DNA from: a virus
Direction: 5' to 3' (one strand)
Length of the DNA stretch: 26,122 bases
Virus record (IMG/VR): IMGVR_UViG_3300026118_000038
Coordinates: 1 to 26,122 of that record
Of this stretch, positions 2,082 through 22,071 are shown piece by piece. The notes beneath the pieces were generated by a model. It was not told where the DNA came from, ran no database searches, and saw nothing but the letters and a program-made list of their open reading frames with translations. A program made the translations under genes and the position numbers. Each line of letters begins with the position of its first letter. The first letter of the stretch is position 1.

Positions 2082-2839
2082 CAGCCACCCCCTCGAAGAT
2101 CGCTTGGAAGCTCTCCGCCACGGTAGTCATAGGTGCTTCCAGACGGGTTTGAGTACGAGCCATAGCTGTTGGGAGATGTATAGCTCTGACCGCCACCATT
2201 GAGGTAATTCCAGCCCGCATAGTTTGACAGGCCATTGCTGACAGCGTTTCCGACACCGATGGTTCCAGCTGCGGAGGCATTCCCAGCGCCGATCATGGCG
2301 TTCGTTGCCTGACCGGTCAGTGCAGTGCCTGCGCCAGCCGTGATTTGGTTTGCGGTCTGCCCGAGGCCTGCAAGGTTCGACAGCCGGTTGTATGTGTTCG
2401 TCTGCTGTGCGGTGAAGTTGTTGAAGGCTTGCTGATAGGCATTTCCGGCGTAGCCTTGCGCATAGTCGTTGATGCCCTTCAGGGTGTTGCCGCTGAAGCC
2501 GCTTGCGTTACCTGCATTCTGTGCCGCGCCCAAGCCCTGCTGCAGCATGAAGTCATAGTTCGGGGCAAGACCATTCTTCAGGTCCTGAGCGTTGAACTGA
2601 TGGTTCAGAGAACCATATCCCTCCGCGCCTGTATTCCCGCTCGTCCCAAGCAGGTCGCCAATCTGGTTGACCGCACCCTCTCCTTGCTTCCGCCAGGCGG
2701 CATTGTCTTGACGGATTTGAGAGTTCTGGTTATTTGCCGCATCGCGAGCGGAGTTCGCGGCATCGACTTGTTTATCAGACGCTTTATCGGCGGCGTATGC
2801 ACCGACTACTGCGCTCCCTACGACTGCCGCTGCGACCAT
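2081..2839 (-). CDS. DNA transfer/ejection protein, gp7-like (p32-type)
   Basis: 252 residues. The N-terminus is hydrophobic and alanine-rich (AAAVVGSAVVGAYAADKAS), followed by an N/Q-rich helical part. Residues about 90-165 carry the pattern typical of phage proteins annotated as DNA transfer protein p32: a 'P-NYDFMLQQG' segment, then 'SGNTLKGINDYAQGYAGNAY', then 'NRLSNLAGLGQTA'. The C-terminal 40 residues are S/G/Y-rich and probably disordered. In P22, gp7 is ejected with the DNA and helps genome entry. Its place after the tail-completion genes and its size (P22 gp7 about 230 residues) agree. The start ATG lies 2 bases after the GNAT gene stop. Confidence 0.75.
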   Translation of the reverse strand: MVAAAVVGSAVVGAYAADKASDKQVDAANSARDAANNQNSQIRQDNAAWRKQGEGAVNQIGDLLGTSGNTGAEGYGSLNHQFNAQDLKNGLAPNYDFMLQQGLGAAQNAGNASGFSGNTLKGINDYAQGYAGNAYQQAFNNFTAQQTNTYNRLSNLAGLGQTANQITAGAGTALTGQATNAMIGAGNASAAGTIGVGNAVSNGLSNYAGWNYLNGGGQSYTSPNSYGSYSNPSGSTYDYRGGELPSDLRGGG

Positions 2840-2841
2840 GT

Positions 2842-3294
2842 TTATTCCAACATCATTGAATAGAAGGTTTCGACCTTATCGAACCCTAGGACCTCGAAGA
2901 GGCGACTTGCATCAGCGTGATTTTTTGATCCAACAAACCAGCGCTGCACGCCTCTGCGCTTCAATTCTTCCTTAACGGCCTTGAACAATCGAGGCCCTCC
3001 CATGCGGCATCTTACTTCAGGATGCACATAGAAGATATCAGTGACGCACGTGAGACACGTTTTGTAGTGCAGCCCGGGATTGATGAATCCGACGTAGTAG
3101 CCGACCAATCTTCCTTCCTCGCGCATAGAAACCAAAAGGCATTGGCCTAAAGCATCTCTTTGAAGGTAAATGTCATACTGCGGATCGAGCGGAACACGAT
3201 CCTTGTTTAGCGCCAATTCTTCATAGTGAAGCGGGAACAGCGGCTTCATCTCTGAAAGGTGTTCTGTCAGCGATTCAACATGGGTCGTCAGCAT
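2842..3294 (-). CDS. GNAT-like acetyltransferase fold protein in the virion module
   Basis: 150 residues. The sequence has the GNAT layout: a strand with LLVSMREEGRLVGYYVGF (53-70), a strand with TDIFYVHPEVRCRMGG (85-100) where the acetyl-CoA pyrophosphate loop would be, a helix (PRLFKAVKEELKRRG), and a C-terminal part with NHADASRLFEVLGFDKVE. The usual Q/R-x-x-G-x-G/A loop is present only in degenerate form (VRCRMGG), so activity is uncertain. Similar proteins recur in phage structural clusters and are sometimes called internal virion protein A. It overlaps the hydroxylase-like gene by 7 bases, so the two are co-translated. The substrate, if any, is unknown. Confidence 0.75.
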   Translation of the reverse strand: MLTTHVESLTEHLSEMKPLFPLHYEELALNKDRVPLDPQYDIYLQRDALGQCLLVSMREEGRLVGYYVGFINPGLHYKTCLTCVTDIFYVHPEVRCRMGGPRLFKAVKEELKRRGVQRWFVGSKNHADASRLFEVLGFDKVETFYSMMLE

Positions 3295-3833
3295 GGCATG
3301 CGGATGTCCACGATGAGATGAATTCTGTCACCGGCACTATTGTTGATGACCTCGTGCTCTACCGAGTTATCGAACCAGAAGATTTCACCCGGAGCCATGT
3401 AGACATTCTCATCTCCACATCTGAAAACAGAGCCCGGCGAGCTTTCTAGAACGATGTGAAATCGGTCGTAATAGGCCGCATGTGTGCCACCGTCGACATG
3501 CGGCTCAATCTTGCAGCCCGGCCGAAGCTTCGTGATCAAGCACCGCCCGAGCCTCTCACCCTGAACATACGCCATGAGGTTCATGACCATCTGCCGAGCC
3601 TCAGGAAGATATGCATATGCCGGGTAATCGATGGACTCATGCTCATCAACGACCTTCTCAACTTCTTCCTCAAGCCGATTGAACCGAAGCCAAATATCGC
3701 TTACTTGCTTGTGGGGGGTCTGCGGGTGTGTGGTGCGAAGCGTGTTCTGATCCCACAGCTCAGGTCGACGCTGCAAATTCAGCAAAAGGCGAGTTGTATC
3801 AATACCTTGGGCGATTCTTCGGAAGTTCTTCAT
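3288..3833 (-). CDS. Aspartyl/asparaginyl beta-hydroxylase-like Fe(II)/2-oxoglutarate oxygenase
   Basis: 181 residues. The C-terminal half has the double-stranded beta-helix signature of the Asp/Asn hydroxylase family: IEPHVDGG with His112 and Asp114 as candidate metal ligands, YDRFHIVLE, a turn with APGEIFWFDNSVEHEV giving the distal His160, and RIHLIVDIR with Arg170 placed to bind 2-oxoglutarate. All expected ligands are present, so an active enzyme is plausible. Family members hydroxylate Asp or Asn side chains. Here the target could be a virion or host protein; this is inference. The start overlaps the upstream stop as TAATG. It lies between tail genes and the ejection block, an arrangement I associate with P22-like phages of beta- and gammaproteobacteria. 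Confidence 0.85.
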   Translation of the reverse strand: MKNFRRIAQGIDTTRLLLNLQRRPELWDQNTLRTTHPQTPHKQVSDIWLRFNRLEEEVEKVVDEHESIDYPAYAYLPEARQMVMNLMAYVQGERLGRCLITKLRPGCKIEPHVDGGTHAAYYDRFHIVLESSPGSVFRCGDENVYMAPGEIFWFDNSVEHEVINNSAGDRIHLIVDIRMPC

Positions 3834-4426
3834 TAGACAGCTATCCCATTCGAGACAAGGGCCGTTCGCAACTGGTTCACCAGTGTTACTAGGTTATTGA
3901 TTATACCTTGCTCAACTGCCGTATATGCCGCTCCTGCCGTCCCTGCAACCGCAGCGCTTACTGCCGATGAAGTCTGGGCCGTCTTGCCATTGCACCCGAA
4001 TGCACCAGCGACAGTCATCACACTCGCGCCAGTGATGGACGTGCTGCTTGATGCAGTCACAAGACCCTTGGCGTTGATTGTGAGGGTCGGGACGGTGCTG
4101 CCGTTACCGAAGGCGCCCGGCGTGCCATTCACTGTCGCCAGAGTCGTGACGAGTGATCCGCCAGGAGTTGTCACATCTCCCGAGAGGGATGGAAGCGCAG
4201 AGGCCGGAATGAAGGTTGTCGGAATGTATGCAGATCCATTCCCGACTGCTATCTGTCCCGCTCCAGGCGCAGTCCCGTTGCCTGTGCCACCCGATGTGAC
4301 TGCTACAACGCCGCTGATCGTGATCTGTTGGAACTGAGGATTCAACAGCCACAACTGCCATGCGCGCGTGATGTAGCCCTTATCGTCTACGAATGCAGAG
4401 GTTGGTAGGTTGACGACGGTTGCCAT
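3833..4426 (-). CDS. Short fibre-repeat protein (tail or head fibre component)
   Basis: 197 residues. Residues 1-35 (with GYITRAWQLWLLNPQFQQ) look like an attachment segment. Residues about 80-135 contain the widespread phage fibre repeat pattern GDVTTPGGSLVTTLATVN, GTPGAFGNGSTVPTLTINAKG and LVTASSSTSITGA. The C-terminal 40 residues (AVEQGIINNLVTLVNQLRTALVSNGIAV) are a hydrophobic heptad-like helix that could trimerise. It sits immediately after the gp10-like gene, where P22 encodes the gp26 tail needle, so a needle or short-fibre role is possible, though there is no evident gp26 sequence likeness. The start overlaps the upstream stop as TGATG. Confidence 0.7.
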   Translation of the reverse strand: MATVVNLPTSAFVDDKGYITRAWQLWLLNPQFQQITISGVVAVTSGGTGNGTAPGAGQIAVGNGSAYIPTTFIPASALPSLSGDVTTPGGSLVTTLATVNGTPGAFGNGSTVPTLTINAKGLVTASSSTSITGASVMTVAGAFGCNGKTAQTSSAVSAAVAGTAGAAYTAVEQGIINNLVTLVNQLRTALVSNGIAV

Positions 4427-21921: not shown

Positions 21922-22035
21922 GAAAAAGGCCCTTCTGCTGCGTTCTGTGCTGCCAGGCGAGAGGGACGCGTGTCCCTCACAGAGCGCATGAGAAGGGCCT
22001 CATGACTTTTCATCCTACGCCTGGCAGCAATGGAT
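21922..22035 (-). ncRNA. Candidate small RNA of about 115 nt with pseudoknot potential
   Basis: It starts just after a good promoter and ends at a stem followed by TTTTT. Pairings: 21927-21936 with 21991-22000 (10 bp), 21939-21949 with 21978-21988 (11 bp, one wobble pair on the plus strand, a mismatch on the minus), 21961-21967 with 21972-21978 (7 bp around 4 bases), and, crossing these, GCTGCCAGGCG at 21949-21959 with its perfect complement at 22018-22028 (11 bp). The crossing pair makes either an H-type pseudoknot or two alternative folds. Phage immunity and superinfection RNAs (P1 C4, P4 CI RNA, P22 sar) are comparable in size. I cannot place this one in a family. Confidence 0.55.
21923..22000 (-). 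terminator. Intrinsic terminator of the early operon or small RNA
   Basis: On the minus strand the long stem AGGCCCTTCT ... AGAAGGGCCT (10 bp outer, with an 11-position and a 7-bp inner stem) is followed directly by TTTT (21923-21926; TTTTT counting the last stem base) and then CG. This is the classic layout of a factor-independent terminator. It lies about 100 bases past the stop of the last early gene at 22100, so it could also end the early operon. Confidence 0.6.
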
Positions 22036-22041
22036 GTAAGT

Positions 22042-22071
22042 AGCATAATCGATGTAGGCACAGTCCGTCAA
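22042..22071 (-). promoter_or_regulatory. Candidate promoter for the small RNA
   Basis: TTGACG (22066-22071, 5 of 6) and TATGCT (22042-22047, 4 of 6) on the minus strand, 18 bases apart. The predicted start is near 22035, just upstream of the 5' arm of the pseudoknot pairing. It lies downstream of the last early gene, so it is not needed for that gene. Confidence 0.4.

Follow-up and report, generated by a model that had tools for sequence, protein, structure and literature searches.

A small RNA with a pseudoknotted fold, here termed RNA1, is predicted on the minus strand of the window (i.e., the whole stretch of viral DNA analyzed, comprising 26,122 bases), and relatives sharing its fold were recovered from more than 100 phage contigs. 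RNA1 is probably encoded by a free-standing, moron-like phage small RNA gene, its folded product exerting its effect in trans. Since this strongly covarying RNA is absent from Rfam, the small-RNA repertoire of environmental phages appears to be poorly mapped.

The source record represents a P22-like podovirus with a lambdoid gene order, the listed genes being located on the minus strand throughout (Table 1). The O-like replication gene is followed by genes encoding a Mom-like protein, NinB, NinG, an Sf6-like small terminase, the large terminase, a P22 portal, and a P22 coat protein. RNA1 occupies a gap featuring the 86-aa ORF on one side and the HTH gene on the other. The earlier note had placed it between the early operon and an XRE regulator; the flanking ORF and the HTH gene were confirmed, whereas an additional structured stretch (RNA2) intervenes before the latter gene. 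No relatives were found when the XRE protein was used as bait. Regarding the remaining gene content, the Mom-like DNA-modification protein (20626-20123, minus strand; PF25680, phrog_1384) is encoded adjacent to the replication gene, and a GroES/Cpn10-like co-chaperonin gene (16057-15761, minus strand; PF00166, E 9e-12) lies close to where the packaging genes begin. Among the tail-side genes, an aspartyl/asparaginyl beta-hydroxylase-like gene (3833-3288, minus strand) is followed by a GNAT acetyltransferase gene (2842-3294).

Promoter, terminator stem, U-run, and 11-bp crossing pair were all found on the minus strand where the earlier note had located them, and its reading of the region as a discrete unit of promoter, RNA, and terminator is supported, the ends of this unit being predicted ones. 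The predicted 120-nt RNA folds with -53.9 kcal/mol, which is 4.5 standard deviations below dinucleotide shuffles, and none of the 200 shuffles equaled this value. In a descriptor scan for a terminator stem with U-run crossed by a second stem, the window scored 62, whereas the loci collected up to that stage, when shuffled once, reached 59 at most. The single-sequence evidence for the crossing-stem unit is thus just modestly above chance, and certainty comes from the homologues.

Table 1. Features of the window in and around RNA1. PK, crossing helix.
Feature	Position	Strand	Details
Cro-like gene	25264-25049	-	Early genes next
86-aa ORF	22360-22100	-	Upstream of RNA1
Sigma70-type promoter	22071-22042	-	-35 TTGACG 22071-22066; 18-nt spacer; -10 TATGCT 22047-22042; 9/12 consensus match
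Predicted transcription start	~22036-22035	-	
Predicted small RNA, RNA1	22036-21923	-	~114 nt; fold z -4.5; match to covariance model R1
P1, 5' hairpin	22036-22011	-	CAUCC 22036-22032 / GGAUG 22015-22011; loop carries 5' strand of crossing helix
Crossing helix (PK), DNA letters	22028-22018 x 21959-21949	-	GCTGCCAGGCG x CGCCTGGCAGC; perfect 11 bp, 11/11 pairs
PK 5' strand	22028-22018	-	GCUGCCAGGCG; partner 21949-21959; covariation
PK 3' strand	21959-21949	-	CGCCUGGCAGC; flanked by both terminator-stem arms; covariation
P2 outer (terminator) stem, 5' arm	22001-21991	-	GAGGCCCUUCU; fold; covariation
Core strand CUCAUGC	21992-21986	-	2x2 internal loop CA/GY separating P2 outer from P2 inner
P2 inner stem	21988-21979 x 21948-21939	-	UGCGCUCUGU x ACAGAACGCA; fold
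P3, small hairpin	21978-21961	-	GAGGGAC-ACGC-GUCCCUC; length and sequence differ among members
Core strand GCAGCAG (family: GCAGYAG)	21941-21935	-	Same internal-loop motif
P2 outer (terminator) stem, 3' arm	21936-21926	-	AGAAGGGCCUU; fold; covariation
Intrinsic terminator U-run	21927-21923	-	TTTTT (U5)
RNA2, behind RNA1	21922-21725	-	Ends CCUCC...GGAGG-UUUUUU, ~21745-21726
HTH_19/HTH_31-like protein	21518-21225	-	Downstream of RNA1
O-like replication gene	21265-20855	-	

Comparison of the window region with 50,697 phage records by means of blastn yielded no match. When the search pattern was restricted to both crossing strands with their correct spacing, one other viral contig (L059) was recovered; it has the promoter -35 in common with the window, carries altered yet complementary outer stem arms, and keeps the letters CTCATGCG...GAACGCAG. 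Patterns built on these letters identified 31 stretches, five contigs being members, and three successive scans of viral contigs gave 39, 69, and at least 120 matches, respectively, the last of them with a relaxed pattern applied after the phage genome MW202484.1 had shown that the inner stem is variable, too. Altogether, the loci collected represent 114 distinct places. MW202484.1 (Podoviridae sp. ctfne034) was the one complete phage genome retrieved from the phage records by blastn with a member sequence (L114), while two further members (L128 and L165) had no match among these records. Scanning of genome contigs resulted in 10 matches, of which just the Hydrogenophaga locus (L128) was genuine by inspection. 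Hydrogenophaga sp. NFH-34 was the sole match of the covariance model R1 in 401 genomes of the Hydrogenophaga family, and again the only one when the relaxed pattern was applied to approximately 400 genomes of the same order and approximately 400 of the same phylum. RNA1 is at home mainly in viral contigs of metagenomes, and this habitat may account for its absence from Rfam.

R1 was built from 28 sequences and cannot represent a pseudoknot, so that counts for the crossing helix were scripted separately. The window, being among these 28 sequences, matches R1 by construction (72.8 bits, E 1e-17); it features the outer and inner P2 stems with the core CUCAUGC/GCAGYAG. All 11 R1-matching records (11/11) contain a single copy.

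The crossing helix was found to be paired in 99% of cells among 28 non-redundant members, with at least three Watson-Crick types (three or four) at every position. When whole 3' strands were exchanged among members in 2000 shuffles, 45% of cells were paired (maximum 60%), and the number of double-change cells dropped from the 165 observed to 52 (maximum 90). Because the register had been picked for maximal pairing, mismatched partners were also register-optimized as a fairer test; the mean helix score was 32.9 for own partners versus 18.1 for mismatched ones, and in a further set of 35 members, mostly of subtype B, 21.4 versus 13.5. For 55 members of both subtypes, the true partner achieved a median rank of 1, compared to 16 in a promoter-region control. 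The earlier note had proposed a pseudoknot and had named compensatory substitution within the 11-bp crossing pair as its test beforehand; such substitutions are strongly present, and the pseudoknot is genuine. The terminator stem was recovered by RNAalifold with double changes at 7 of 17 pairs. Moreover, the crossing helix contains 35 G-U cells versus 5 A-C/C-A cells, and G-U is likewise far more common than A-C mismatches in P2. This asymmetry identifies the minus strand of the window as the transcribed one.

A promoter match of at least 9/12 was detected in 58% of the members versus 2% of control windows, the end of the -10 element mostly being located 39-57 nt upstream of CTCATGC (49 nt in the window), and a U-run of at least five residues is present in 68 out of 80 members. 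Conservation of both elements suggests that RNA1 is a transcription unit of approximately 105-120 nt, which would be transcribed and terminated as predicted. Relatives carry different complementary sequences in place of the P1 stem (UUCGUC/GACGAA, UUGUC/GACAA, and GUUG/CAAC), and in type B and MW202484.1, the P2 inner stem is substituted in the same manner. CUCAUGC and GCAGYAG around the internal loop are kept in all members, a constancy to which the search patterns themselves contributed in part; the motif was also present in L059 and MW202484.1, found with the crossing-helix-only pattern and blastn, respectively, i.e., independently of it. Neither a conserved unpaired seed outside the core nor a conserved ORF in RNA1 was detected among the members.

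Two subtypes with a common body were distinguished. The crossing helix comprises 11 bp in subtype A, to which the window belongs, and 7-9 bp in subtype B, which features a GUUG/CAAC-like P1 and two-nucleotide linkers compatible with an H-type pseudoknot. Considering the co-transcriptional order, the fold containing the crossing helix is the minimum free energy structure (-45.2 kcal/mol) up to nucleotide 98, when the last arm is unmade, whereas among the nested alternatives for the complete RNA, the terminator stem (-53.9 kcal/mol) is preferred to the crossing helix (-48.8 kcal/mol). The earlier note had left the choice between a pseudoknot and two exclusive folds; taken alone, the nested energies permit exclusivity. 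One pseudoknotted body, in which two hairpins would be linked by a loop-strand helix, is nevertheless favored, both because the two helices are conserved and because of the subtype B geometry.

In several type A members (e.g., L059, L091, L217, and L241), the U-run is directly followed by the inner-stem strand (TGCGTTC or a variant thereof), which thereby occurs for the third time. This additional copy follows the stem changes in L217 and L241 and does not do so in subtype B. A three-segment antiterminator, with GAACGCA choosing between two TGCGTTC copies, was rejected as a general model, the downstream copy being untracked in most members.

The genomic position of RNA1 varies considerably. 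It was found after cro (L228, L229, L257, L271, and L276), after the O-like gene (L190, L250, L251, and L272) or before it (window, L059, and the L091 group), before the terminase (L115, L148, L170, and L204), after TerL (L287), and between the scaffold and coat protein genes (L227). Its neighbors are accordingly diverse, including cro, O-like, RusA, small and large terminase, HNH, scaffold, and coat protein genes, the cro and O-like assignments having been made partly by eye. The longest downstream ORF is co-oriented with RNA1 in 81 out of 107 cases, which is a rough count. As longest-ORF calling yields shadow ORFs, only genes supported by PHROG or Pfam entered the orientation argument. On this basis, RNA1 lies on the strand opposite to the recognized downstream gene in L215 (TerL), L245 (integrase), and L281 (PAPS reductase), where the upstream ORFs are mostly on the opposite strand, too. 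Regarding further neighbors, a queuine tRNA-ribosyltransferase-like gene (3404-4174, plus strand; phrog_887) was observed shortly after RNA1 in an environmental phage (L214), and N-termini similar to that of its product follow RNA1 in L093 and L106.

In most members, RNA1 is followed by a second structured region of approximately 200 nt (RNA2), for which no promoter of its own was seen. It appears to be duplicated in tandem in L254 and is absent from L094 and L289, where a gene begins immediately, indicating that RNA1 is independent of RNA2. In L090, RNA2 (2667-2788, plus strand) was identified as the Rfam family RF02932, Betaproteobacteria-1 (58.5 bits, cut-off 49.4), a structured RNA of Burkholderiales genomes that is thus located directly behind a member of the RNA1 family. 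Identity of Betaproteobacteria-1 with RNA1 itself was considered and rejected; the family corresponds to the downstream RNA2, RNA1 does not match RF02932, and the canonical copies lack a preceding RNA1. Betaproteobacteria-1 exceeded the cut-off in 5 of the 401 genomes of the Hydrogenophaga family, several copies residing after phage-type primase genes (as judged by eye), with no RNA1 in front. An apparent covarying contact within RNA2 (ACUCC..GGAAG versus CAGGG..ACCC) was also observed.

Being position-independent and present as a single copy, having its own promoter and terminator, and featuring neither a conserved ORF nor a free seed, RNA1 is best read as a moron-like gene for a trans-acting RNA, and its action is probably autonomous, as opposed to that of a switch controlling a neighboring gene. 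A sigma70 promoter would give rise to an RNA of approximately 105-120 nt ending at the intrinsic terminator. Two hairpins would form, P1 at the 5' end and then P2/P3, the P2 stem doubling as terminator, and pairing of the P1 loop with a strand inside P2 would tie both into a compact body surrounding the invariant CUCAUGC/GCAGYAG internal-loop motif. This motif would be a natural binding site for a conserved host factor, through which RNA1, as a folded RNA effector carried as a moron, would most likely act in trans and benefit the phage within the cell.

The attenuator or immunity-RNA logic proposed in the earlier note was not supported, since covariation is seen in the terminator stem as well as in the crossing pair, the genome position varies, and some members oppose their flanking genes. 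Alternatively, the promoter and RNA1, together with RNA2, could form a regulated, cis-acting leader for the replication or late operon located downstream, in the manner of lambda pR'-tR' or HK022 put; the crossing helix would form first and delay or allow the terminator hairpin, so that the polymerase stops or reads through. We regard this as unlikely, although it retains weight, RNA1 frequently lying at the heads of replication or packaging genes and being followed by RNA2. These positions, the predominant co-orientation, and the promoterless RNA2 suggest read-through and a possible cis role, and the crossing fold is indeed the most stable one as long as the last arm is missing, the terminator fold prevailing in the complete RNA. 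Moreover, the Q families PF06530 and PF03589 were not found above the cut-off in 28 records. On the other hand, RNA1 cannot be the leader of the neighboring operon in the three phages in which it opposes the flanking genes, its position is highly variable with one copy per record, and changes in the stem are not mirrored by the third strand downstream. Lambda 6S RNA is a short RNA originating from pR' and ending at the early intrinsic terminator tR'. RNA1 resembles it by its constitutive-looking promoter, its early intrinsic terminator, and its frequent location at the head of late genes, but it is not tied to the late operon, features a covarying pseudoknot, and was not accompanied by a lambda/P22-type Q family above the cut-off in the 28 records. 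The idea of a late leader connected with Q, prompted by the terminase neighborhoods, was weakened by the other positions and the opposite orientation. Similarity also exists to putL/putR of HK022, two-stem-loop phage RNAs encoded close to a promoter of a lambdoid phage (PMC9378689). However, put comprises approximately 73 nt, is described as two stem-loops and no crossing helix, and serves the operon it heads (PMC9378689). It acts in cis on the transcribing polymerase, whose beta' zinc-binding domain it binds, whereas RNA1 differs in architecture, carries a terminator at its end, and may face away from its neighbors. A put-like leader position is compatible with most members, L215, L245, and L281 being exceptions due to their opposite orientation.

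The remaining readings are much weaker. A role in immunity or as an antirepressor RNA, exerted as in P4 CI or P1/P7 c4 by base-pairing with a phage transcript, appears improbable. The P4 immunity region features a seqA-seqB-seqC arrangement, which the TGCGTTC / GAACGCA / TGCGTTC series of type A resembles, and RNA1 is a compact promoter-RNA-terminator unit lying close to cro in several phages and near immunity functions in some members. Nevertheless, complementary flanking segments of the P4 CI type were not found as a family feature, the third segment being untracked outside part of type A, including in subtype B and MW202484.1. Free antisense loops are lacking, since the loops are consumed by the crossing helix and the conserved letters reside in the paired internal-loop motif; many members occur in late or packaging regions, and no Rfam model, including the C4 antisense RNA of P1/P7, matched RNA1 at the thresholds used. 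Even lower probability is assigned to an oligomeric RNA, either a packaging RNA like phi29 pRNA or a GOLLD/ROOL-like assembly, with loop and strand pairing between molecules. The phi29 pRNA, GOLLD, and ROOL are folded RNAs carried by phages, in which loop-strand pairing persists despite sequence drift. Covariation looks the same whether a molecule pairs with itself or with an identical copy, and terminase genes frequently adjoin RNA1. However, RNA1 comprises approximately 110 nt, ends in a terminator, is associated with no particular motor, and has no Rfam match; the phage of the window possesses ordinary small and large terminases and a P22-like portal, many members are far from packaging genes, and the short linkers of subtype B (2 nt, with a 7-bp helix) are in line with an H-type pseudoknot formed within one molecule. 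Finally, it is hardly credible that the locus is a DNA-level element (origin, cos/pac, or recombination site) merely looking structured, or a chance fold. Several members do adjoin replication or terminase genes, but covariation in the crossing helix and the excess of G-U over A-C are characteristic of one strand being transcribed, and the sigma70 promoter is conserved at a fixed distance.

A bolder form of the trans-acting RNA gene, which we put forward tentatively and with some doubt, is that RNA1 represents a new class of RNA effector, namely a compact, protein-free moron found in a broad group of tailed phages, mostly from the environment. Via CUCAUGC/GCAGYAG, it would target in trans some conserved machinery of the host (polymerase, ribosome, RNase, or a defense system), while the surroundings of this motif drift by covariation. 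If true, RNA1 would be among the few known phage RNA effectors. With fold, strand, promoter, and invariant motif defined, its expression, structure, and binding partner are now directly testable.

Phage small RNAs are known as a kind; to our knowledge, the fold and family of RNA1 were not known previously. RNA1 of the window had no match at the gathering thresholds of Rfam 15 (4227 families) and only chance matches at E<=1, and RNA1 of 15 further member contigs was not matched, either; the suggestion of a small RNA new relative to Rfam 15 is thereby borne out in covariance-model searches. No description of RNA1 was found in open-access papers, to which the search was confined, and it may exist as an unnamed motif in some large computational screen.

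The nearest relative of the phage represented by the window (L002; O-like protein 71% identical) shares with it the promoter (90% identity) and the downstream flank (92%). The RNA at the same place (3286-3440, plus strand) is unrelated in sequence and has the same topology, a stem of at least 13 bp crossing the terminator stem. Because R1 does not match this RNA, it is considered either analogous to RNA1 or only very remotely related to it. A tRNA-like sequence, unrecognized by ARAGORN and by Rfam, follows it at approximately 3455-3600 (plus strand), featuring a 7-bp acceptor-like stem, a CCGGG-UUCAAGU-CCCGG arm, and the letters ..CUCCACCA.
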